Position numbers and translations under genes: made by a program. Shown piece after piece: positions 3,343 to 17,661 of a stretch of DNA of 20,454 nucleotides. Source of the DNA: a virus; IMG/VR virus record IMGVR_UViG_3300042882_001008, positions 1 through 20,454 of that record; one strand, written 5' to 3'. The stretch's first letter is position 1; each line of letters opens with the position of its first letter. The notes under the pieces were generated by a model. It was given only the letters and a program-made list of their open reading frames with translations. It was not told the origin of the DNA and made no database searches.

Positions 3343-3585
3343 ATGAATAGCGATATGATCTCAATTTCAGCCTTAACAGCTGTTATCACTGCACTCTTGC
3401 CAGCGTTTAAAATCTTCTCATCATATGATAAACGGATTGCACTTTTAGAGCATCAAACAATGGCTTTATTGGTCAAGCAAGAGAAGACAGACGCTGAACT
3501 CGATTCAATAAATCGCACTCTCAATCAACACACTGTTATCCTCGAACGAATAGAGACAAATGTTGATTTTTTGAAAAATAAATAA
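3343..3585 (+). CDS. Small membrane/coiled-coil protein, possible holin
   Basis: An 80-residue protein three bases after the endolysin stop, with a GGGAGGG ribosome binding site inside the endolysin end. One hydrophobic segment (about residues 6-25, ISISALTAVITALLPAFKIF) is followed by a continuous heptad-like helix (about 28-78). This layout and the place directly after the endolysin fit a small holin or holin partner that lets the endolysin reach the wall. XhlA-type proteins carry the same two parts in the opposite order. The lysis role is inferred from context. Confidence 0.5.
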   Translation: MNSDMISISALTAVITALLPAFKIFSSYDKRIALLEHQTMALLVKQEKTDAELDSINRTLNQHTVILERIETNVDFLKNK

Positions 3586-3602
3586 AGAATTGTGTTTTAA
3601 TT

Positions 3603-3621
3603 GCTCCCACAAAAAAGGAGC
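3603..3621 (+). promoter_or_regulatory. Hairpin covering the ribosome binding site of the ribonucleotide reductase gene
   Basis: GCTCC at 3603-3607 can pair with GGAGC at 3617-3621 across a 9-base loop. The 3' arm is the Shine-Dalgarno GGAG for the ATG at 3626. Pairing would hide the ribosome binding site, so it may tune translation. The stem is only five base pairs and could be chance. Confidence 0.35.
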
Positions 3622-3625
3622 TATT

Positions 3626-5566
3626 ATGAAAGCACAAAACGAGCTTTTAGGCGCTGTTGCCTTTGCTACTCAGTACGCCAAGATCAAATCAGACGGCACT
3701 AGAGAAAACTATATTGATGCGATGATTCGCGTTCGAGATATGCACTCAAAAAAATTCCCATCTTTGAAGCCACAAATTGACAAAGTTTTTGAAGATTTTG
3801 TATTTAAGAAAATCATATTCCCATCTCAGCGCTCAACACAATTTGCAGGTGTTGCCATTGAGAGAAACAACATGAGAATGTACAATTGTACTGCTTCTTA
3901 TGTCGATCGACCAAGATTTTTTGCTGAAGGTTTTTGGCTCTTGATGAGCGGGTGCGGGGTTGGTTTTTCAGTGCAAAAGCCACATATCGCAAAATTGCCA
4001 AGCTTAATTTCTAAAGAGCAAAGAGATGCAAGATTGTGCATTGTGCATGTCGTTGAAGACTCAATCGAGGGATGGGCTGATGCAATCGATGCCTTGATCA
4101 CAAGCTACCTACCACATGATGGCAAGGGTCAATATGCCATCAATTTCCATTATGATAGAGTACGACCAGAGGGTGCTCCCATCTCTATCGGTGGAGTAGC
4201 TCCAGGGCCTCAAGTACTCAAAACAGCGATTGAAAAAGTTAAATCTCTTTTGGATTTAGCAGTGGATCAAGGCCAAGAGAAACTACGATCAATTCAATGT
4301 TTTGATATCTTCATGCACATATCACACGCTGCACTTTTGAGCTCAAGACGAGCGGCGACTATCGCATTATTTTCACCTGATGATGAAGAGATGATGACTG
4401 CAAAAACAGGCTCTTGGTGGATCGATCAACCTCAAAGAGCATATGCGAATATCAGCGCTCAAATCATCTTGGACGGCACAGAAGAGAAAGATTTCTTTAA
4501 GCAAATTATTGAGAATGCAAAACAATATGGAGAACCTGGATTCTTCTTTGCTAGTAGTCAAGAGCATGCGACAAATCCGTGTGGTGAGATTGGCCTTTAT
4601 CCTACCTATAAAGATGAAAATGGCAATTGTCATAGTGGTTGGGCTGTTTGCAATCTCAATGAGATTGTGATCCCAAATGTACAAGATACTGATCATTTTT
4701 ATGAAGCTTGTAAAGCTGCTGCATTTTTAGGCACAATCCAAGCAAGCTACACAAGAGCGGGATATCTTGGAGAGATCACACAAAAGATCATAGAGAGAGA
4801 TGCACTTTTAGGCGTGTCTATGACAGGCATGATGAGCAAGCCTGATCTTAGTTTACATCCTCTTGCTCTCCAACATGGTGCAAGTCTTATTCAGCAAGAG
4901 AATAAAAAAACTGCTGATTTGATTGGAATCAATCCTGCTTTAAGATGCACCACAATTAAACCAAGCGGCAACTCAAGTACGGTTGCAGGCTGTTCAGCTG
5001 GCATCCATCCATATCATGCAAAGAGATATATTCGTACTATGCGAATAAATAAAATAAATCCCATTTGGCAAGAGATTTTAAGTAAATTGCCTGAGGTTTG
5101 TGATGATAGAGATGCACAGGTTGGTATTGTGTCTTTTGCATGTGAAGCACCAGCTGAAGCAGTTTTGCGATCGGATATAAATGCAAATGCTTTTTTGACC
5201 AATGTTGAGCTCGTTCAAAAATATTGGGTTGCACCGACTACATCGATGAGAGAAATCGATCAAAGAAAAATTACTCACAATGTAAGCAACACCTGCACGG
5301 TCAAGGCTGATGAATGGGATGATCTCACAAATCGCATTTGGGATTTGAGGGATAGAGTGAGAGGCATCTCTCTTTTATCTGACTATGGTGATCATGTATA
5401 TGAAAATGCACCGTATCAATCTGTAAATAAAGATGATGATCAAATGATTGAAAAATATAACAAATTGCTTAATGCTGATTGGTCAAAGGTTGATTTAAAT
5501 CTTGGTGGCTATGTTGAGCCTGCACAAGTGGATCCTGCCTGTGCAGGTGGTGTCTGCCTTATTTAA
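3626..5566 (+). CDS. Adenosylcobalamin-dependent (class II) ribonucleoside-triphosphate reductase
   Basis: A 646-residue enzyme reducing ribonucleotides to deoxyribonucleotides with a B12-generated thiyl radical. Visible residues: YNCTASY with C88 (first reducible Cys), the finger-loop NPCGEI with thiyl C319 and E321, C342 in VCNLNE (partner Cys), GVSMTGMM, PSGNSSTVAG, and a C-terminal CAGGVC (C639, C644) that shuttles electrons. This set matches the monomeric Lactobacillus leichmannii RTPR type. It is somewhat shorter than the roughly 740 residues usual there, with no obvious ATP cone. The ATG at 3626 follows AAAGGAG; a longer frame from a TTG at 3590 lacks such a site. It follows the lysis genes on the same strand and its stop overlaps the convergent RecT gene end by 8 bases. 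With ThyX, dCMP deaminase and thymidine kinase it supplies dNTPs. Confidence 0.9.
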   Translation: MKAQNELLGAVAFATQYAKIKSDGTRENYIDAMIRVRDMHSKKFPSLKPQIDKVFEDFVFKKIIFPSQRSTQFAGVAIERNNMRMYNCTASYVDRPRFFAEGFWLLMSGCGVGFSVQKPHIAKLPSLISKEQRDARLCIVHVVEDSIEGWADAIDALITSYLPHDGKGQYAINFHYDRVRPEGAPISIGGVAPGPQVLKTAIEKVKSLLDLAVDQGQEKLRSIQCFDIFMHISHAALLSSRRAATIALFSPDDEEMMTAKTGSWWIDQPQRAYANISAQIILDGTEEKDFFKQIIENAKQYGEPGFFFASSQEHATNPCGEIGLYPTYKDENGNCHSGWAVCNLNEIVIPNVQDTDHFYEACKAAAFLGTIQASYTRAGYLGEITQKIIERDALLGVSMTGMMSKPDLSLHPLALQHGASLIQQENKKTADLIGINPALRCTTIKPSGNSSTVAGCSAGIHPYHAKRYIRTMRINKINPIWQEILSKLPEVCDDRDAQVGIVSFACEAPAEAVLRSDINANAFLTNVELVQKYWVAPTTSMREIDQRKITHNVSNTCTVKADEWDDLTNRIWDLRDRVRGISLLSDYGDHVYENAPYQSVNKDDDQMIEKYNKLLNADWSKVDLNLGGYVEPAQVDPACAGGVCLI

Positions 5567-6422
5567 CCTTCCAAGTCTCCCGCCAATCCCTAACATCATC
5601 CTCGTCCATGTCTGCATCTCTCCACTGATGAACATCCAAATCTTTATCTCTATAAGCCTGCTGCTCAATAGCTTTCTTTTGATCACTTGGAAACAAAGGC
5701 TCTTGACCTATCGGTGGCGACTGCACAGGCTGCACAGGTTGCACTTGTACAGGCTGCACTTGTACAGGCTGCACTTGTACAGGCTGAGGCATATGAGAAA
5801 CATCTGCACCCGCTTTTTTGGTACCTGGTCTGCGATCTGCCTTCATCTTTTCATGAGCAACGGACTCAGCGATGGCTGTATCTTGTACCTCATCCATGGC
5901 TTTGACTTTCTCCTCTTCAGTCATATCCCATGCTGAATCGATCATCTCAACTGCATCATATCCACTGATCACATCTGCAAAAACCTCTCGCAAAGCCATA
6001 GTACGGCAACGAGCTTGAAGCATCTGCTTAGGCATTTTTTGCCAATTTGGTGATTTGGTGAGGTTTGCCTGTTGTGCCATCTCAATGGTAAAAGTGATGC
6101 GATGCACGGTTTTGCTATCGCGGCGCTTGCATTCGATAGTACATAGTCTATCTGTGCTCTCTACTGTATCGATGCGATCTGCTTTGCCTGATGATAGCAC
6201 TAGACCAATGAAAGCATGGACTTGATAGGCAAGCTTGCCACCTTGCATAACATGGAGGTTTTCCATTGTTTGAGCGATATTCCAACCGTACTTGATGCCA
6301 TAGGTGAGGTATGCTCTCACAATAATTTGAGGTGTCCAGCTGCCATGAGCGAGGAAATTTGCGATTTTTACAAGGCTATCCATTGAGTCAGCAATGTCTT
6401 GTACATCTTTGAAAACTGCCAT
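5559..6422 (-). CDS. recT: RecT-family single-strand annealing protein
   Basis: A 287-residue protein. Residues about 1-160 match RecT: TYGIKYGWNIAQTMENLHVM, KLAYQVHAFIGLVL, a beta-rich centre, then PNWQKMPKQMLQARCRTMALR and VFADVISGYDAVEM, the typical RecT ending. It should coat single-stranded DNA and anneal complementary strands in phage recombination. The tail from about 170 is low complexity: a Pro-Gln-Val repeat at about 213-234, then an acidic end (DADMDEDDVRDW). AAGG in the last codons of the preceding gene serves as ribosome binding site. It is the last gene of a minus-strand operon. No partner exonuclease is recognised in the window. Confidence 0.82.
   Translation of the reverse strand: MAVFKDVQDIADSMDSLVKIANFLAHGSWTPQIIVRAYLTYGIKYGWNIAQTMENLHVMQGGKLAYQVHAFIGLVLSSGKADRIDTVESTDRLCTIECKRRDSKTVHRITFTIEMAQQANLTKSPNWQKMPKQMLQARCRTMALREVFADVISGYDAVEMIDSAWDMTEEEKVKAMDEVQDTAIAESVAHEKMKADRRPGTKKAGADVSHMPQPVQVQPVQVQPVQVQPVQPVQSPPIGQEPLFPSDQKKAIEQQAYRDKDLDVHQWRDADMDEDDVRDWRETWKVK
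5739..5783 (-). repeat. Three 15-bp tandem repeats encoding the PVQVQ tail of RecT
   Basis: The plus-strand unit (C/T)TGCACTTGTACAGG occurs three times without gaps at 5739-5753, 5754-5768 and 5769-5783, with a degenerate copy on the left. It encodes the Pro-Val-Gln repeats of the RecT linker. Length variation by slippage is plausible. Confidence 0.8.
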
Positions 6423-7680: not shown

Positions 7681-9111
7681 TTATGTGAAATCCGAGATAG
7701 TTTGAGTATTGCGATCGTATTTAGTCTTGGCTGTACCAAGTGAGCCATGCCTGTTTTTAGCAACGATAATCTCAAGCATGCCAGAATCTTGAGACAGCTC
7801 TTTATTGTAGTAGTCTTCTCTATATAGCATCAAAACGGCATCAGCATCTTGTTCAAGAGAGCCTGATTCTCTAAGATCGCTAAGGCCTGGTCTTTTGTCC
7901 ATTCTTTTCTCAGCTTCACGATTGACTTGAGTGAGGCACACGATTGGACAATCGCATTCTTTGGCAAGCAGCTTTAAAGACCTGCTGATCTCACTCACCT
8001 CTTGCTCTCGCATTTGATTTTTGTTTGTGCCTGATCCCTTGAGTAGTTGTAGGTAGTCAATCACAATCATACCGAGGTCGTTCTCCTTCTCTTTGATCAT
8101 TTTACAAAAAGATGTCAGTGAGCTGATATCAGTCACTCCTTTGTCCACCAAAGTGATGTTTTGTGATGCTAAAGATTCCGCCGCCTCAACAATCCTCTCA
8201 ACCACGAATTGGGGAGCTTCATCTAAAGATCGATCTTTCAAGTTGATGTAGTCAATGCCACCAACCGAGCAAAACAGTCTTGCGATCAATTGCTCTTTGC
8301 TCATCTCAAGGCTGATAAAGATCGTTCTGCGATTTGAGATTTGCTTTAGCTTGATCAGATGCAAAGCCAATGCAGTTTTGCCTACACCTGGACGACCTCC
8401 GATGTAGTATAAGCAACCTCTTTGAAGCTTCATATATCGATCCAACTCAGTCAACCCTGTACTGATGCCTGTAGGTACTGCACGCATTGAGAGAAGAGTT
8501 TGTCTGATCTGATCTGAAAAACTTTCACTCTCAACAGGTAGCAATTGCTTGTATAGATCAACCTTTGCTTTATGCCTTGACTCTACCCAATCCATATCAT
8601 GACCTTCTCTTAAAAGCTTGGCTTTGTATGCATCCACCATTGCGATCTGGCAAGACACATACCATTGCACATGAGCGCGCACCTCTGCATGTGCAATTGT
8701 GAAAAGCCTATAAGGCTCATAATTTAAGAGCAATGTAGTCATCACATGTCCGATTTCATCGGGAGATTTAGCGTTAGGCAAGTCTTTGAAATTAAAATGA
8801 TGCCTTTTTTTATACTCATCAATCATCGCAGGCAATGTGATAGGTACAGGATTGTCTTTTGTGCCTTTTGCTTTGATCCTGATTGCCATTCTGTACATCA
8901 AGCATAATGTTGGATCGAGCATGAGATCATCATCTTTAATCAATCTGAAAATCATATCTTTGATCTCATCATATCCATCTTGCACAAGTGTGGATAAAAT
9001 TCTTGATGCACGCATTGCGGCTGCGATGATATCATCTTCTGATAAAATATCGGTTGATGTGATCACATCAGAAAGCTTCACCTTATTATCCCAAGAGTGT
9101 TGATCATCCAT
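7681..9111 (-). CDS. dnaB: Replicative DNA helicase, DnaB family
   Basis: A 476-residue protein of normal DnaB length. The N-terminal collar domain covers about 20-185. The RecA-like domain shows Walker A GGRPGVGKT (238-246), SLEM with catalytic E269, Walker B IVIDYLQLL (349-357), the DnaB motif CLTQVNREAEKR (392-403), and SDLRESGSLEQDADAV (411-426). It should unwind DNA at the fork as a hexamer in the cytoplasm. Its ATG lies two bases after the stop of the upstream HTH gene, so both share the promoter at 9389-9417. The initiator on the opposite strand is the likely loader partner. Confidence 0.93.
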   Translation of the reverse strand: MDDQHSWDNKVKLSDVITSTDILSEDDIIAAAMRASRILSTLVQDGYDEIKDMIFRLIKDDDLMLDPTLCLMYRMAIRIKAKGTKDNPVPITLPAMIDEYKKRHHFNFKDLPNAKSPDEIGHVMTTLLLNYEPYRLFTIAHAEVRAHVQWYVSCQIAMVDAYKAKLLREGHDMDWVESRHKAKVDLYKQLLPVESESFSDQIRQTLLSMRAVPTGISTGLTELDRYMKLQRGCLYYIGGRPGVGKTALALHLIKLKQISNRRTIFISLEMSKEQLIARLFCSVGGIDYINLKDRSLDEAPQFVVERIVEAAESLASQNITLVDKGVTDISSLTSFCKMIKEKENDLGMIVIDYLQLLKGSGTNKNQMREQEVSEISRSLKLLAKECDCPIVCLTQVNREAEKRMDKRPGLSDLRESGSLEQDADAVLMLYREDYYNKELSQDSGMLEIIVAKNRHGSLGTAKTKYDRNTQTISDFT

Positions 9112-9113
9112 TT

Positions 9114-9350
9114 TTAGGCATCTTTCTTTGGCAAAAAGCCACAGCCTACTGCATAGGGATAGAGAAAAAATTGATGGCTGATGCCTGTGGCTTGCTCAAG
9201 TTGCATTGCCATCTTCATTGAACAGCCTTGATCATCTTTGAAATATAGATAAACCTGTTGACGAGTTTTTCCCATCTTCTCAGCGATCTTAGGGATGGAC
9301 ATGCCTGTGATCTCTCGTACACGGTTGACTTTAAAGCTAACTTTACTCAT
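9114..9350 (-). CDS. Small HTH transcriptional regulator (Cro/repressor-like)
   Basis: A 78-residue protein with a helix-turn-helix at about 18-38 (SIPKIAEKMGKTRQQVYLYF), the typical pattern of lambdoid small regulators. The ATG at 9350 is chosen because AAAGG stands upstream and a predicted -10 lies just beyond; a longer frame would extend into the promoter. It shares its pattern (V.E.TGM...A...G...TGIS..F.L) with the HTH protein at 10733-10954, so the two are paralogues. It is the first gene of the minus operon leading to DnaB and sits at a divergent promoter region, the classic place for an autoregulator of the replication switch. Confidence 0.78.
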   Translation of the reverse strand: MSKVSFKVNRVREITGMSIPKIAEKMGKTRQQVYLYFKDDQGCSMKMAMQLEQATGISHQFFLYPYAVGCGFLPKKDA

Positions 9351-9388
9351 GATTGAGCCTTTCTTTTTGATTAAAAAATTTCTATTCC

Positions 9389-9417
9389 ATCGTATCAAAT
9401 AGGCTTTACTTTGTCAA
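9389..9417 (-). promoter_or_regulatory. Sigma70-like promoter for the HTH-dnaB operon
   Basis: The minus strand shows TTGACA (9412-9417), a 17-base spacer and TACGAT (9389-9394). Transcription would begin near 9382, about 30 bases before the ATG at 9350. On the opposite strand the same bases give TTGTCA (9411-9416), a possible -35 for the divergent initiator gene, so the two promoters may share their core. Confidence 0.65.
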
Positions 9418-9427
9418 TCTTAAACTG

Positions 9428-9439
9428 TATCATGTGATA
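9428..9439. promoter_or_regulatory. Candidate operator TATCA-TG-TGATA in the divergent control region
   Basis: A perfect inverted repeat with 5-bp arms and a 2-base centre lies between the minus-strand -35 and the start of the initiator gene, where an HTH dimer would block the plus-strand promoter. A further half site TATCA occurs at 9393-9397 beside the minus -10. The proposed binders are the two HTH proteins flanking this region; that is inference. Confidence 0.45.
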
Positions 9440-9465
9440 AAAATCATTTACAAAAAGGGATTAAG

Positions 9466-10755
9466 ATGTCAAAGCTTTTTAGTGAAACAATGCCTTCTTT
9501 TGGCGTTCTCAGCAATATCAATCGATGCGGATTATTGGCTCAAATTCCAAATGCTCGCACTATTTTAATGCGAATCATTGAACTCATTGAGATTGATAAA
9601 AACTCAAATGGAAGATCAATAGTTGCTTCATATTCTTACATTGGCACAATGATCCATGTATCTGAGCAACAGGTAAAAAGATCAATTGAAAAGATGGCTG
9701 ATGATGGCATCTTGTCAAAATCCAAATACAAGTTTAGCGGCATGAATGAGATTAAATTAACTGATTTTTGCCTTGCTCGATATTGGAGATCATACACAGA
9801 CTTTTATAAAGATGATGAACGATTAGATCAAAAAAGACCTGATCGATTAGATCAAAAAAGACCTGAACGATCAGATCAAAAAAGACCTGATCGATTAGAT
9901 CAAAAAAGACCTACAAATAAAGAAACCTTTTTAATAAAGGAAAAAGAAATAAATAAAGAAAAAGCGATTGAGCCTGAGATTGAAAAATCTGAGTTTGAAA
10001 AAATCATTGAAGATGAGATGAAAGGGCACATGTGGGAGAGCCTACAGGCATCTAAGAAAATCATCATTGAAGATGAAAAGGTACAATGTGATCTTCCAAC
10101 ATGCTCATCAAACATTTATCGAGCATGTGAAGATACAGGAAAATATTATTGTGTTTTTGAGCCTAGTAAACCTTGGCAAAAAGAAAGCAGGCAAATTCAA
10201 ATCAGGAGAATGCTTAAAAGCCAATTCGTGCAAATGAAACAACATCACCTTGATCTATCACTACAAAATCTAAAACTCGATCTAAAAGGTGATGATTTAA
10301 ATTATGTGCTGGATGTCTGTAAAGGTGGCAAGCAGAAGCTTTTTATTCAAGGCTCAAGCAATATGCTCACACATCTAGCAACAGGCATTTTTAAGCAAAA
10401 CTTGTTTGAGGTACATTATCCCTATGAGCATAGCTATGGCATGCCTAGAATTGCCTTTATGACATGGGATGAGTGCATGCAACTGATGCATGATTTTTAC
10501 ATCGAGGAGAAACGCACATACTCCAATCAAATATCCACAATCAAAGATAAATTCTCAAAGTTTGATATGATCATCATTGATCAGTTTTCTGTAGGCAAAA
10601 AGAACAAGCTGAGAGAGGCCATGATCAAGCAATTGAATGAGTTTGTGCAGATTTTTGAAGGCTCAATCGTTTTACTATCAACCGAAGATCATGCACCAGC
10701 TGGCATGACAAAATTAAAATTGGAGAAACATCATGGCAATGAACGAAAAAACTAG
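9466..10755 (+). CDS. Replication initiator: N-terminal winged helix, iteron-encoded linker, degenerate AAA+ loader-like C-terminus
   Basis: A 429-residue protein with AAAAAGGGA upstream. Residues about 20-105 form a winged-helix pattern (SYSYIGTMIHVSEQQVKRSI recognition helix, then KMADDGILSK) like lambda O and other phage initiators. Residues 118-149 are four R(L/S)DQKRP repeats encoded by four 24-bp iterons. A charged linker follows. Cys208, Cys213, Cys221 and Cys229 may bind a metal. From about 275 the protein resembles DnaC-type helicase loaders: KLFIQGSSNMLTHLATGI stands where a P-loop would be but lacks the G-K-T residues, while FDMIIIDQF (366-374) resembles Walker B with Gln for Glu, and GSIVLLST resembles sensor I. 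It probably binds the origin in its own gene and recruits DnaB. The family is not firmly identified. Confidence 0.68.
   Translation: MSKLFSETMPSFGVLSNINRCGLLAQIPNARTILMRIIELIEIDKNSNGRSIVASYSYIGTMIHVSEQQVKRSIEKMADDGILSKSKYKFSGMNEIKLTDFCLARYWRSYTDFYKDDERLDQKRPDRLDQKRPERSDQKRPDRLDQKRPTNKETFLIKEKEINKEKAIEPEIEKSEFEKIIEDEMKGHMWESLQASKKIIIEDEKVQCDLPTCSSNIYRACEDTGKYYCVFEPSKPWQKESRQIQIRRMLKSQFVQMKQHHLDLSLQNLKLDLKGDDLNYVLDVCKGGKQKLFIQGSSNMLTHLATGIFKQNLFEVHYPYEHSYGMPRIAFMTWDECMQLMHDFYIEEKRTYSNQISTIKDKFSKFDMIIIDQFSVGKKNKLREAMIKQLNEFVQIFEGSIVLLSTEDHAPAGMTKLKLEKHHGNERKN
9817..9912 (+). repeat. Four 24-bp iterons, probable replication origin
   Basis: Four exact-length tandem units start at 9817, 9841, 9865 and 9889. 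Each ends in the invariant core AGATCAAAAAAGACCT. Units 2 and 4 are identical, and the others differ at one or two positions. They lie inside the initiator gene, as in lambda ori, and are followed by an AT-rich stretch. Confidence 0.8.
9913..9965 (+). other. AT-rich, purine-rich stretch beside the iterons (candidate unwinding element)
   Basis: About 80 percent A+T with strong A over T asymmetry on the plus strand. It contains the inverted repeat CCTTT-TTAAT-AAAGG (9926-9940). Its place right after the four iterons matches the melting region of lambda-type origins. The role is inferred from layout. Confidence 0.55.
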
Positions 10756-10954
10756 ACTTGTTAAAGAGAAAACAGGGATGACTTTAAAAGCCTTGTCCAA
10801 AGAAATCGGATATGCAGAAACATCTTTAACTTGTGCATTGAGAGGGCATTATCAAATGGGCTATCCATTGGCAAAAATCTTAGCTGAACGAACAGGAGTA
10901 TCCCCGCTCTATTTTTTAGAAGATAATGCTAAACTCGAAGATTTTTTAAAATAA
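10733..10954 (+). CDS. Small HTH DNA-binding protein, paralogue of the 9114-9350 regulator
   Basis: A 73-residue protein starting inside the end of the initiator gene (23-base overlap), with GGAG about 7 bases upstream of the ATG. The helix-turn-helix is TLKALSKEIGYAETSLTCAL (about 17-36), followed by a helix and TGVSPLYFLED, a typical Xre/Cro-like ending. It aligns along its length with the HTH protein on the other strand. It is likely a second regulator of the divergent control region or an autoregulator of the replication block. Confidence 0.75.
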   Translation: MAMNEKTRLVKEKTGMTLKALSKEIGYAETSLTCALRGHYQMGYPLAKILAERTGVSPLYFLEDNAKLEDFLK

Positions 10955-11075: not shown

Positions 11076-11684
11076 ATGGCAAAGTTATATTTTTTCTATT
11101 CTGCAATGAATGCAGGAAAAACAAGTCAATTATTGCAAACGAATTTCAATTATGAGCAAAGGGGCATGAGCACACTACTTTTTGCACCTGCATTTGATCA
11201 AAGAGAAGGCCTTGGCACAATCAAATCGAGAATAGGCATATCAGCATCAGCCAATATCTTTTTTAAAGAAACTGATCTTTTTCAAGCAATAAACAGCCAT
11301 CACAATGGTGCTCAAGTGCATGCAGTCTTTATTGATGAAGCTCAGTTTTTATCTCCCGCTCAAGTGCTTCAATTGACCGTAGTTTGTGATAGGCTCAACA
11401 TCCCTGTGCTCACATATGGATTGAGAACGGACTTTAGAGGAGAGCCTTTTGAAGGTAGCAAATATCTGCTTGCTTGGTCTGATACTCTCACTGAGATCAG
11501 AACGATCTGCAAATCAGGGAAAAAAGCCACGATGTCAGCACGACTCGATCAAGATGGCAATAGGATTTTTGAAGGTGAGCAAATTGATATTGGATATCAC
11601 TATGAGCCTATGGCAAGGCATATGTTTCAGCTAGATAAAGCATCACCTATCGCATGCAAAGAGACACCAGCTGATCGTAAATAG
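11076..11684 (+). CDS. tdk: Thymidine kinase, TK1/type II family
   Basis: A 202-residue enzyme phosphorylating thymidine (and deoxyuridine) with ATP for dTTP salvage. The N-terminus KLYFFYSAMNAGKT holds the P-loop (9-16). VHAVFIDEAQFL gives Walker B and catalytic E88. YGLRTDFRGEPFEGS is the conserved TK1 segment, and IRTICKSGKKATMSARLDQDG leads to the C-terminal lasso and zinc ribbon. Of the four usual zinc ligands only C145 and H182 are evident; a Cys is missing from the CxxC pair and another from the C-R-x-H motif (here MARH). No clear ribosome binding site precedes the ATG, which is fixed by family length. Its last 58 bases overlap the convergent dCMP deaminase gene. Confidence 0.88.
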   Translation: MAKLYFFYSAMNAGKTSQLLQTNFNYEQRGMSTLLFAPAFDQREGLGTIKSRIGISASANIFFKETDLFQAINSHHNGAQVHAVFIDEAQFLSPAQVLQLTVVCDRLNIPVLTYGLRTDFRGEPFEGSKYLLAWSDTLTEIRTICKSGKKATMSARLDQDGNRIFEGEQIDIGYHYEPMARHMFQLDKASPIACKETPADRK

Positions 11685-12085
11685 TCTTCTCCTGTACTGA
11701 TCCATCTTGTGCTTTTTATCTCATAGTAAACAGCTTTGATGCCTGCATGATGAATAAGTTTAGCACACATTAAACAAGGTGGTGCAGTCACATAAATAGA
11801 GCATCCATCTGTTGCAATTCCATTTTTAGCGGCATTCGCAATTGCGTTCGTTTCAGCATGATGGCATCCTATTTGCGATTGTGATCCGCTGGCAATCTGA
11901 TCTTTATCTCTTAGGCAACAATCACCACCACACAATCCCGATTGTTTGCGAGCAATTCCATTAAAAGAAGATATGATAGGCACATCCCCGCGCACGATCA
12001 CAGCACCGACCTTTGCACGACTACAAGGAGATAGACTTGCCATGATCTCAGCCATGCTCAAAAAAGCCTTATCTTTAGCAGTCAT
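11627..12085 (-). CDS. dCMP deaminase (zinc-dependent cytidine/deoxycytidylate deaminase fold)
   Basis: A 152-residue enzyme converting dCMP to dUMP, the ThyX substrate. The catalytic motifs are complete: HAE at 76-78 (CHHAETNAIA, with E78 as proton shuttle) and PCLMC with zinc ligands C104 and C107. An insert with C52, C56, C57 and C74 resembles the second-metal region of phage and eukaryotic dCMP deaminases. I chose the ATG at 12085, which overlaps the end of the upstream transglycosylase gene by 11 bases; a TTG at 12130 would add an unrelated N-terminus. It is the last gene of the ThyX operon and its 3' end overlaps thymidine kinase. Confidence 0.87.
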   Translation of the reverse strand: MTAKDKAFLSMAEIMASLSPCSRAKVGAVIVRGDVPIISSFNGIARKQSGLCGGDCCLRDKDQIASGSQSQIGCHHAETNAIANAAKNGIATDGCSIYVTAPPCLMCAKLIHHAGIKAVYYEIKSTRWISTGEDYLRSAGVSLHAIGDALSS

Positions 12086-12551
12086 AGCAGTCGTCTTCTT
12101 TTGATGATAAACAGGCAAGCTCACTAGCAAGTTTTAAAACGGCCTTTGATCGTTTGCCGCATTTACCTTTATTGCCTACTGCATACCGACCAAGAGCAAG
12201 GCATGTATCACCTTGAGAGACATCAAGCCACACTTGAAAAGCCTTAATACCGTACTCAATTTCTGAGCAATCTTTACAATCAAAAAACTGTTTCTTTACC
12301 TGCATCACACCTTTAGCACCAGCTGATGATGTCAAACCTGTTTCAAACTTGCTTTCATAGTATGCAATCGCAATCATGAGATGAGGATCAACCCCCATCT
12401 TTTCAGCACTAGATGCGACCTTCAAGCACTGTTGCATTCTAGAGGGAATTGACTTAGCGACAATCTTTTCCCATCCAAGGTCTTGCTTGCTTTGAGTAGG
12501 ATTGAAGATCATACCCATCACAACCCAACAAACATCAAAATAGCTATTCAT
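12075..12551 (-). CDS. Lytic transglycosylase (SLT-like), Cys-rich, possibly exported
   Basis: A 158-residue protein with the SLT signature: AIAYYESKFETGLTSSAGAKGVMQV has catalytic E66 and the S-x-A-x-G-x-M-Q block, and ALGRYAVGNKG is the usual later motif. It should cleave the glycan strands of peptidoglycan. The N-terminus (VCWVVMGMIF) is hydrophobic enough for a weak signal or anchor. Nine Cys residues (8, 42, 92, 95, 117, 131, 147, 155, 158) suggest disulfides outside the cytoplasm. GAGG precedes a run of ATGs; the ATG at 12551 overlaps the zinc-ribbon gene stop by 8 bases. Its place inside a nucleotide-metabolism operon, far from the other lysis genes, is odd. Confidence 0.78.
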   Translation of the reverse strand: MNSYFDVCWVVMGMIFNPTQSKQDLGWEKIVAKSIPSRMQQCLKVASSAEKMGVDPHLMIAIAYYESKFETGLTSSAGAKGVMQVKKQFFDCKDCSEIEYGIKAFQVWLDVSQGDTCLALGRYAVGNKGKCGKRSKAVLKLASELACLSSKEDDCYDC

Positions 12552-12729
12552 CATCATCATCCTCGTCTTTGGTGATGTCATCCCAGCTCTCATCGTATGA
12601 GATATCATCGTATGAGATAACAATTGCTTTGTGATCAAAGATTGAACGGCAGTTTTTGCAATAGTGATATTCCATGCTGGAGCCTGCTAAGGTTGAGTTT
12701 ATTTTTGATTGGCATCTAAGACATTGCAT
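12544..12729 (-). CDS. Small zinc-ribbon protein with acidic tail
   Basis: A 61-residue protein with two CxxC pairs, C3/C6 and C24/C27 (CLRC and CKNC), that make a classic zinc ribbon, then a strongly acidic tail (residues 42-61) ending in a run of Asp. It overlaps ThyX upstream by 31 bases and the transglycosylase downstream by 8, so it is tightly coupled. Small ribbons of this type bind nucleic acids or RNA polymerase subunits in other phages; the acidic tail would suit protein binding. No specific family is recognised. Confidence 0.62.
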   Translation of the reverse strand: MQCLRCQSKINSTLAGSSMEYHYCKNCRSIFDHKAIVISYDDISYDESWDDITKDEDDDDE

Positions 12730-13376
12730 AAGAGTAAATCCATTGTTTTGGGGAAGATGCTTGATGTTATATCACAAACTGCTTGAGCATATTCTCTTAT
12801 TTCAAATTGAGCGTTTTCATCGAGTCTCAATCTCAAAAAGTGCATGATTGATTGTGTTGATGCCGTCCAAATGCACTCGCTATAAGTCGCCACAGGCAAG
12901 ACAATGCGAGCTTGCTCTCTACATACACCCATGGCAAGCAATCGCTGATAGTTGCCATATGCAAGGGAATAGACCTCATCAATCAAGATCAAAGCTTGGT
13001 CTTCCTCTGCATCTGATAGCGACCCTATCGATGATTGCTTGTTTTTTGTGTCTTGTAGTCTGAAATGGTCGGGATAATAAAAGCCTTCTTTGATCTCAGT
13101 ATATCGTGCTGATTGCTCATTCCAAGCACAGCCGACTTGATGCTTCATCCATTGTCTTAATACAAAGATAGGTGCCTTAATTCTGAATGAGACGCTAGAG
13201 TGTCTAAACGGTGATGTGTGCTCATGATCCCAAAGATATTTTAAGAGCTTGCCATCTCTATCCGTCCATGATGTGGAGATAGATGCAAAGCTCACACGAG
13301 CGGCATTGACCACAGATAGGTCTGATCCCATGTGATCGACATATTCAACAAATCCGTCTGAAATAATCTTTTTCAT
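12699..13376 (-). CDS. thyX: Flavin-dependent thymidylate synthase
   Basis: A 225-residue enzyme making dTMP from dUMP with FAD, NADPH and methylene-tetrahydrofolate. Family marks: SFASIS after an N-terminal strand, HTSPFRHSSVSF (53-64), RQWMKHQVGCAWNEQSARY (74-92, the ThyX signature in the form K-H-x-x-G-x-x-W-N-E-x-S-x-R-Y rather than the strict RHRx7S), and the C-terminal HFLRLRLDENAQFEIREYA (179-197). The ATG at 13376 follows AAAGG at 6 bases; a longer frame runs into the AT-rich promoter. It heads a minus-strand operon with the deaminase that supplies its substrate. Confidence 0.92.
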   Translation of the reverse strand: MKKIISDGFVEYVDHMGSDLSVVNAARVSFASISTSWTDRDGKLLKYLWDHEHTSPFRHSSVSFRIKAPIFVLRQWMKHQVGCAWNEQSARYTEIKEGFYYPDHFRLQDTKNKQSSIGSLSDAEEDQALILIDEVYSLAYGNYQRLLAMGVCREQARIVLPVATYSECIWTASTQSIMHFLRLRLDENAQFEIREYAQAVCDITSSIFPKTMDLLLCNVLDANQK

Positions 13377-13463
13377 ATTTGCCTTTCTTAATGAAATGTG
13401 TATTATATTATTATATAATTTTATGCTTTTCAAGTGTTTATATAACACCACTAAGGAGAAAAA
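13377..13463. promoter_or_regulatory. Divergent AT-rich promoter region between thyX and the ssb operon
   Basis: On the minus strand TTGAAA (13428-13433) and TAATAT (13405-13410) are 17 bases apart, a reasonable thyX promoter; overlapping TATAAT hexamers lie nearby. The inverted repeat GTGTT-TATAT-AACAC (13434-13448) sits just before the AAGGAG of the plus-strand operon and may be an operator. The plus-strand promoter is not clear. Confidence 0.5.
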
Positions 13464-14194: not shown

Positions 14195-14758
14195 ATGGCA
14201 AAGAATAGACAAGCTCCAGCACCTAAAAAGACCGTTGATAAAATTGATACGGTCGATTCGAAGACTAGCAAAAACGCCATTGTGCCAGCTAAAAAAACAG
14301 ACGAGGAAAAGGCAGACCTCGCAAAAAAGAAAAGGCTGATGTTAACCGAGCAAGTGCTTGAATATATTTCTCAAGGCCTTTCTCAGACTGATGCACTTTC
14401 TTTTGTCGGTGTTGCCTACAGCACTTGGAATGGATGGATGAGAGCAGACCCCGAATTGGTGGCTGATATCAAGAGAGCTGAAATCTCTTTAAAGGTCAAG
14501 CATCTTCAAAATATTCAACGACATGCTGAGAATGATGTGAGAGCCTCCCAATGGCTTCTAGCTCGTAAATTCCCTGCAGAATTTGGGGAAAAGCAAACGA
14601 TTGATATGAATACACGAGGGGATGATAATAAGGTTATCATCAATGTGATCCAGCAGGTGCAAAAAGAAAAGCATGCTCAAGCTATTGAGATCAAGCATGA
14701 GCTACCTGATGAGCTACCTGATGAGCTACCTGATGAGATAGACGATGAAGAAGACTGA
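14195..14758 (+). CDS. terS: Terminase small subunit
   Basis: A 187-residue protein starting at an ATG with AGAGG upstream. After a Lys-rich N-terminus, residues about 45-80 form an HTH (EYISQGLSQTDALSFVGVAY then TWNGWMRADPEL), and HLQNIQRHAENDVRASQWLLARKFPAEFG is a phrase typical of phage small terminases. It should recognise the packaging site and regulate the large subunit. The end carries three E-L-P-D repeats from 12-bp DNA repeats and an acidic tip. It overlaps the large subunit start by 14 bases. Confidence 0.82.
   Translation: MAKNRQAPAPKKTVDKIDTVDSKTSKNAIVPAKKTDEEKADLAKKKRLMLTEQVLEYISQGLSQTDALSFVGVAYSTWNGWMRADPELVADIKRAEISLKVKHLQNIQRHAENDVRASQWLLARKFPAEFGEKQTIDMNTRGDDNKVIINVIQQVQKEKHAQAIEIKHELPDELPDELPDEIDDEED
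14699..14734 (+). repeat. Three 12-bp tandem repeats in the small terminase tail
   Basis: GAGCTACCTGAT occurs three times at 14699-14710, 14711-14722 and 14723-14734, encoding E-L-P-D repeats. It is an exact in-frame microsatellite near the start of the large subunit gene and could change length by slippage without frameshift. Confidence 0.8.
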
Positions 14759-16136: not shown

Positions 16137-16922
16137 ATGAAAAGCGACTTAAATTTTTATCTAGATGTCCGAAGCGTAAAGCATGGCTTTAAAAATACTG
16201 CAGGCTCTTTTGAGCTAGATGAAAGGCTTTGTGAAATAGAAAATCAGATCGAGCAAGATAATCGGAGAAAGCGAGATCTTCAAGCGACTTATTGGAAAAA
16301 GGAAGGCAAACGAAGACCGTCAATGCAATTCGATATTGCTAAAATTCAATCAATGGTTGAGCAAAAAATACCTTGGGAAAAGATTGCTGATGCTTTTGGA
16401 GTGAGTGATCACTGCATGCGAGGATTTGCTAAAAAGAACGGCATCTATGTTACTATCTCAAGCGGAGCTAGAAGAAAAATTCATATAGAATCAGGCAAGC
16501 TCAAGGCATTGATTGACCAAGGTTTAACTTGGCAAGAGATAGGCAAAAAGCTAAGTGTGAGCAAGCAACTTGTCATATCGAGAGCCATAGAGCTTGGCCT
16601 TAGCAAGCAAACCAAACGATTTTTTATTGACACTGAAAAGCTCAAAGGTTTAGTTGAGCAGGGATTGAGTTGGATAAAGATAGGTAGGCTTTTAGGTGTT
16701 AGCGACTACACTGCTCATCGTAGAGCCTCTGAGCTTGGTTTTATCAAACAGTATACAAAGAGAAAGAAAAGCGATGCTGATCAACTTAAGATTTTAGTTG
16801 AGCAGGGATTGAATTGGATGGAGATAGGCAAGGTTTTAGGTGTTAGTCATGTATCTGCACGAGAGAGAGCCAATAGGTTAGGCATCTTCAAGCAAGACAA
16901 CAGGAGAAAAACAAGTGAATAA
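16137..16922 (+). CDS. Protein with four tandem helix-turn-helix repeats
   Basis: A 261-residue protein with AGGAAAAC before the ATG. After a basic, partly coiled N-terminus (about 25-62), four repeats of about 47-52 residues begin at 70, 122, 169 and 217. Each follows the pattern L-(3)-V-E-Q-G-L-x-W-x-x-I-G-x-x-L-G-V-S and continues into an R-A-x-x-L-G-I/F-x-K-Q helix, a trihelical homeodomain/Hin-like HTH. Repeats 3 and 4 are almost the same in DNA too. There is no nuclease or other catalytic motif. It could bind a long repeated site in phage or host DNA, or serve packaging. It overlaps the methyltransferase start by 8 bases, so the two may act together. No named family is recognised. Confidence 0.65.
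   Translation: MKSDLNFYLDVRSVKHGFKNTAGSFELDERLCEIENQIEQDNRRKRDLQATYWKKEGKRRPSMQFDIAKIQSMVEQKIPWEKIADAFGVSDHCMRGFAKKNGIYVTISSGARRKIHIESGKLKALIDQGLTWQEIGKKLSVSKQLVISRAIELGLSKQTKRFFIDTEKLKGLVEQGLSWIKIGRLLGVSDYTAHRRASELGFIKQYTKRKKSDADQLKILVEQGLNWMEIGKVLGVSHVSARERANRLGIFKQDNRRKTSE
16650..16846 (+). repeat. Direct repeat from recent duplication of an HTH unit
   Basis: TTAGTTGAGCAGGGATTGA occurs at 16650-16668 and again at 16794-16812, 144 bases (48 codons) apart, and similarity continues to TTTTAGGTGTTAG in both. Repeats 1 and 2 have diverged far more, so this copy is recent or kept similar by gene conversion. Confidence 0.75.
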
Positions 16923-17661
16923 AATTCTTTTAGGTGATTGCCTTGAGCTCCTACCGACAATAGCAGATAAATCTGTTGATATGATCTTATGCGATTTGCC
17001 TTATGGTACGACTGCTTGCGAGTGGGATAGCGTGCTTGATATGGCTAGACTATGGGAGCAATATGAACGAGTGATTAAAGATAATGGTGCTATCGTGTTG
17101 ACGGCATCATCATTTTTTACTTTTGTTTTATACAATTCGAATCCAAAGCTGTTTAAATATAAAATGGTATGGGACAAAAATTTTAAAGTGGGATTTATGG
17201 ATGCAAATAGGCGACCGATGAGGCAACATAAGGACATCTTGCTCTTTTACAAGAAGCCACCGATTTACAATCCCCAAAAATCTAAAGGCGAAAAATATAA
17301 AAGTAAAAATGCAACAATTCCAGAGTATATGAACAAAATTAAACGAATTGATACTATAAACGAAGGAGATAGGTATCCAAGCGATATTATATCTTTTGAT
17401 AGTGTGACATTATCAAAAGAAAGAGGACTACACCCAACACAAAAGCCTGTGGCTCTGTTTGAATACCTGATCAAGACCTACACCAACGAAGGTGATCTAG
17501 TGCTTGATAATTGCTCAGGTAGTGGCACAACAGCAATCGCCTGCATCAACACAAATCGCAGATATATTTGCATGGAGAGAGATGAAGGATATTATCAAAA
17601 ATCAGTTGAGAGAGTGGCAAATCATGAGCCTTTATTGCAATTTATCAATCAAAAATCTTAG
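16915..17661 (+). CDS. DNA methyltransferase, beta class (N6-adenine or N4-cytosine), orphan
   Basis: A 248-residue protein starting at GTG with AGGAG 8 bases upstream. The catalytic motif DLPYG (27-31) precedes the AdoMet-binding motif DNCSGSGTT (198-206), the order of beta-class amino methyltransferases; LHPTQKP (172-178) is also typical. The central part (about 85-165) would be the target recognition region. It methylates an amino group in a specific DNA sequence that cannot be read from the protein. No restriction enzyme lies beside it. Likely roles are protection against host restriction or marking of DNA for replication or packaging. Its stop overlaps the stop of the convergent gene. 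Confidence 0.85.
   Translation: MNKILLGDCLELLPTIADKSVDMILCDLPYGTTACEWDSVLDMARLWEQYERVIKDNGAIVLTASSFFTFVLYNSNPKLFKYKMVWDKNFKVGFMDANRRPMRQHKDILLFYKKPPIYNPQKSKGEKYKSKNATIPEYMNKIKRIDTINEGDRYPSDIISFDSVTLSKERGLHPTQKPVALFEYLIKTYTNEGDLVLDNCSGSGTTAIACINTNRRYICMERDEGYYQKSVERVANHEPLLQFINQKS

Follow-up and report, generated by a model that had tools for sequence, protein, structure and literature searches.

A probable replication origin in four tandem repeats within the initiator gene of an uncultivated phage

Where does this phage start copying its DNA? The window (the whole stretch of DNA analyzed, 20,454 bp) contains an open reading frame for a 429-amino-acid protein (9466..10755, plus strand) with the features of a replication initiator, and a first-pass annotation had proposed a lambda-style origin inside that gene. 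In lambda, the O protein binds the origin and the P protein delivers the helicase. We have examined the repeats, the protein that they interrupt, and the relatives of both. Our reading of the sequence is that the phage probably starts DNA copying at four repeats within its own initiator gene.

Four iterons and an A+T tract lie within the initiator gene

The array occupies 9817..9912 on the plus strand, where it separates the DNA-binding half of the protein from its C-terminal half. It has a period of 24 bp, 4.0 copies, and 0 indels. The units (9817-9840, 9841-9864, 9865-9888, and 9889-9912) are in the frame of the open reading frame and encode, in order, the octapeptides ERLDQKRP, DRLDQKRP, ERSDQKRP, and DRLDQKRP. 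A 16-bp core, AGATCAAAAAAGACCT, is exact in 4/4 units (9825-9840, 9849-9864, 9873-9888, and 9897-9912), and an exact copy occurs nowhere else in the 20,454-bp window. When up to 3 mismatches were allowed, the window had 6 matches to the core, just 2 of which, both weaker, were outside the array; in 100 dinucleotide-shuffled sequences there were on average 0.48 matches and never more than 2. These data confirm the four gapless, in-frame iterons with an invariant core that the first-pass annotation described. A terminator-like match on the minus strand (9877-9860) was rejected, being the iteron sequence itself, and the count of such matches was near chance.

Directly after the iterons is a purine-rich A+T tract (9913..9965, plus strand), the presumed unwinding element. 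Positions 9912-9965 are 81.5% A+T and 74% purine, which puts them in the top 0.6% and the top 0.23%, respectively, of the 54-bp windows of the record, in agreement with the roughly 80% A+T, purine-rich stretch noted earlier. The short inverted repeat reported there is also present (CCTTTTTAATAAAGG at 9926-9940, arms 5+5). However, its importance is unproven because it is imperfect in L002, one of the relatives described below. Among these relatives, the tract is largely kept in L002 and L043 and is weaker in L007 (72%) and L011 (62%).

GATC is present in every unit of the window, and the first-pass annotation had suggested that its methylation could control binding. This is not supported because GATC is missing from most other repeat types: the arrays of L043, L060, L064, L007, L010, and L011 have none, and the L002 array has one. 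In addition, the records have about as many GATC sites as a Markov model predicts. GC skew tracks the strand on which genes lie and is therefore confounded as an origin signal. An Rfam scan returned nothing at the gathering threshold.

The N-terminal half is predicted to be a winged helix distantly like those of O-type initiators

Residues 1-113 (9466..9804, plus strand) are predicted to be a winged-helix DNA-binding domain by AlphaFold2, PHROGs, and Foldseek, and the model places a recognition helix at residues 67-79 (9664-9702, plus strand). The N-terminal domains of this family matched initiator and O-like PHROGs weakly (E values of 4e-5 to 0.05). TIGR01610, the N-terminal O domain, matched just one member, and weakly (0.065). 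In Foldseek searches the N terminus resembled phage O proteins, replisome organizers, and the N domains of plasmid RepA proteins, with the RepA structures 4pql and 4pt7 among the matches. Together, these models and profiles suggest a winged helix that is distantly like those of lambda-O-type initiators. PDB sequence searches with the protein gave no meaningful match, and there were no initiator relatives among 50,697 deposited phage records.

The recognition helix and the repeats change together

Relatives of the initiator were found in IMG/VR, with identities of 97% (L001), 82% (L002), 46% (L043), and about 25% (L007-L016, the L007 group); the L043 group comprises L043 and L059-L064. Their initiators also have a tandem array between the N- and C-terminal halves, and each array has its own sequence. 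Copy number shifts by whole 24-bp units: there are 4 copies in the window versus 5 in L001, and L061-L064 have 1 or 2 extra. A comparison of iterons in related phages, which had been suggested as a check, therefore revealed arrays at the homologous place that differ in sequence and vary in number by whole units.

The window and L002 are mostly 86-100% identical (100-bp bins) over about 10.5 kb. Two places depart from this, a gapped stretch near 7.1-7.7 kb and a block at about 9225-9975. The latter is a cassette (9225..9975) in which identity to L002 falls to 48-92% when counted in 25-bp bins, whereas its flanks are mostly 86-100% identical. Besides the DNA-binding domain and the iterons, it takes in the divergent promoter region, the N-terminal part of a small helix-turn-helix (HTH) regulator gene, and the first part of the A+T tract. 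At the protein level, the DNA-binding domain of the initiator is 69% identical between the two phages and the C-terminal part is 96% identical. L007 and L008 differ by a similar but milder divergent island. Therefore, the DNA-binding domain and the repeats have been exchanged together, as one cassette.

The regulator gene (9114..9350, minus strand; start set by comparison with L002) lies between the initiator and a divergently transcribed gene for a phage DnaB-like replicative helicase (7681..9111, minus strand; PF03796, E=4.3e-78). A DnaB-like helicase gene is also nearby and divergent at the relatives' loci that we read. L002 has 21-bp repeats, TTTACATTGTCAATAAAA, upstream of the initiator and past the end of the helicase gene (L002 positions 1682-1732 and 3479-3537). 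They are possible operators of the small HTH regulator, the N-terminal part of which diverges in the same cassette, and the matching places in the window have a degenerate form only. A second small HTH protein (10733-10954), conserved in L001 and L002, overlaps the initiator gene at its 3' end. We also searched genome contigs for a host: the initiator profile found no relative, and the DnaB profile found just distant DnaB relatives (<=46% identity).

Across the family, the recognition helices fall into six classes, and the repeats into the same six (window/L001; L002; L043/L059; L060-L064; L007/L008/L010/L016; and L011/L014). The closest pair of different classes is instructive. Six aligned residues distinguish L059 from L060: D68H, four that are repeat encoded, and K304Q. 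D68H is at the start of the recognition helix, and the four repeat-encoded changes alter the left arm of the copies. Because the lineages are few and related, we regard the matching of repeat and helix as strong circumstantial evidence, not proof, that this domain reads these repeats.

This co-variation ties the sites to the DNA-binding domain, but it does not say what binding does. The repeats might be sites at which the same protein controls its expression or copy number, as an operator or by titration, with the origin elsewhere. We consider this unlikely. The sites are 350 bp into the gene and beside an A+T tract, an arrangement shared with lambda O and pSK41 rep, and the confinement of the exact core to the array also argues against it.

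Relatives show constraint on the DNA of the repeats

The repeats might instead matter as protein, forming a charged, flexible linker of RLDQKRP octapeptides, with DNA identity a by-product of recent duplication. All copies are in frame in the window, L001, L002, and the L043 group, and their number changes by 24-bp units; both facts favor this reading. There are also 0 synonymous differences among the window copies. That could be mere recent duplication in the window clade. However, the octapeptide is not conserved, being NRSDNKLS in L002 and NQSGEKSP in L043, and the repeats travel with the DNA-binding domain. Furthermore, the L007 group reads one DNA word in two frames, as PMDKN and LWTKM. 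Such reuse of a 12-mer in two frames was reached by only 6/5000 (L007) and 10/5000 (L008) synonymous resamples. The same word in two frames means that constraint there is on DNA, not protein. The first-pass annotation had held that homologues keeping the protein repeat while synonymous changes scramble the DNA would speak against an origin, and the opposite was found: the DNA word persists as frame and peptide change. We infer by homology that the same DNA-level constraint applies to the window. Taken together, these observations make a purely protein-level role quite improbable. Neutral tandem duplication without function would fit the different array lengths of close relatives, but it is scarcely credible given arrays at a homologous place that each have their own sequence, exchange linked to the DNA-binding domain, and one DNA word reused in two frames.

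We also looked for dyad symmetry within the repeats. The arrays of L043 (AGGGGA-AAAA-TCCCCT), L007 (TATGGACA-AAAA-TGTCCATA), and L011 have perfect dyads; for L007 and L011 these are beyond what resampling gives (19/5000 and 7/5000, respectively). The iteron dyad of the window is weak (4/6 pairs, p=0.31; p=0.10 for three related lineages combined), and so we do not claim one. The lambda O iterons, which we checked in J02459, have dyads with an A-rich center and spacings of 20, 24, and 23, not all of which are multiples of three.

The C-terminal half looks like an AAA+ domain without an ATP site

An O-type C-terminal half, which contacts the loader P, was not found in the initiator. Instead, residues 276-420 (10291..10725, plus strand) matched DnaA/DnaC folds in an analysis using Foldseek, Pfam, and a motif check. 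The C-terminal part was modeled separately, with 12 sequences. The best Foldseek match of this model was DnaA domain III (E=1.6e-5), followed by Hda, IstB, DnaC, and DnaI. PF00308 matched the C-terminal half at 19.8 bits, under its 23-bit cutoff. A profile comparison with the single Escherichia coli DnaA sequence was not significant, yet the P-loop position lined up. At the position of the ATP-binding loop the initiator has LFIQGSSNMLTHLA versus LFLYGGTGLGKTHLL in E. coli DnaA, and LFIQG....THLA aligns with that DnaA loop.

The predicted fold therefore resembles the DnaA domain III/Hda/DnaC/DnaI/IstB clade, but it differs from that clade in its motifs. Walker A (GxxxxGK[TS]), with its lysine, was absent in 9/9 members checked, and the motif check revealed no conserved Walker B acid. 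Unlike in DnaA, the AAA+ fold is joined to an O-like winged helix and not to DnaA domain IV. The initiator looks like an O-like winged helix fused to a dead loader-like AAA+ domain. Because both structure models are of modest confidence (mean pLDDT of 57 and 59), we treat the dead loader-like domain as a supported interpretation and not as a fact. The earlier description of the initiator as a different protein from lambda O was half right: the C-terminal half does differ, but the winged helix at the N terminus has weak matches to O-type initiator families.

A model for initiation and its relation to known systems

We propose that the N-terminal winged helix would bind the four tandem iterons and probably bend them into a compact complex. 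Strain would then pass to the adjoining purine-rich A+T tract, which would open. The C-terminal half, an apparent AAA+ fold without an ATP-binding loop, might recruit or hold the phage's own DnaB. A single polypeptide, with a linker encoded by the origin DNA, would thus combine the roles that lambda gives to O and P. As a whole, this explanation, with an origin at 9817-9965 bound by the winged helix, opening of the A+T tract, and recruitment of DnaB by the C-terminal half in a tailed-phage lineage, seems to us likely. The lambda-style layout put forward at the outset is upheld by the co-variation of repeats and DNA-binding domain, the variable copy number, the two-frame word, and the A+T tract in nearer relatives. 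Because the record is a linear fragment, a second origin may lie elsewhere in the genome. A more specific version, in which an O-like winged helix and a dead AAA+ domain in one chain with an origin-encoded linker load DnaB without ATP hydrolysis by a loader, and in which specificity is traded as a cassette, is tentative, and we judge it slightly more apt to fail than to hold.

Lambda and its relatives, including lambdoids with 4 or 6 iterons, are an established case of an origin located inside an initiator gene (PMC7466680). The locus described here is like lambda O/ori in having iterons midway along the initiator gene, an A+T tract directly after them, and an N-terminal domain of the winged-helix type. 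As in the lambda family, too, iteron number is variable, and more than one reading frame of the iterons is found within the family. However, the iteron sequence differs, and full-length homology to O is not detectable. Also, lambda uses a separate loader, P, and the host DnaB, whereas here there is a divergent phage DnaB and a C-terminal half that lacks a P-loop.

The second precedent is the RepA_N plasmid pSK41. The origin boxes are in the center of its rep gene and code for a linker, and Rep has an N-terminal winged helix (PMC5703833). Between pSK41 and pPR9, about 500 bp encompassing the DNA-binding domain and origin has been exchanged, and the C-terminal part is >97% identical (PMC5703833). 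Our phages are alike in that the DNA-binding domain and putative origin were swapped as a unit and the C-terminal part was kept. They are unlike pSK41, a plasmid in which the Rep C-terminal domain contacts DnaG primase, in that they are phages and the C-terminal half is DnaA/DnaC-like.

Therefore, intragenic origins and cassette swaps are known from lambda and pSK41/pPR9, and what would be new is the fused, apparently dead AAA+ half that we infer from models of modest confidence. The literature that we searched, which covered few subscription papers, had nothing on point about an initiator/DnaA-like fusion in phages. This is a new family of intragenic-origin initiators with a changed C-terminal half, and it extends to an uncultivated phage lineage the principle of lambda and pSK41, an intragenic origin exchanged as a unit. 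The six naturally occurring combinations of recognition helix and iteron, including the near-minimal pair L059/L060, are material for studying the joint evolution of initiators and origins. Should the C-terminal half be a dead loader, initiator and helicase loader would have merged in one protein, and one might ask whether the loader can do without ATP.

Other features of the window

Nucleotide-supply genes are at 3590-5566 and 11076-13451 (a ribonucleotide reductase relative [PF02867], thymidine kinase, dCMP deaminase, and ThyX), and an N6/N4-type DNA methylase is encoded at 16915-17658 (PF01555, E=2.4e-31). There are also repeats in other genes. A RecT-like annealing protein (5559-6422) has a short proline/glutamine/valine repeat with a 15-bp DNA unit (5734-5786), the length of which differs in L002 and L007. 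A 156-bp tandem repeat (744-1040; 1.9 copies, 81% match) is within a large open reading frame at the left end of the window. Finally, the end of a small-terminase-like gene has a 12-bp repeat encoding ELPD (14697-14737), and its copy number in the window differs from that in L001 and L002.
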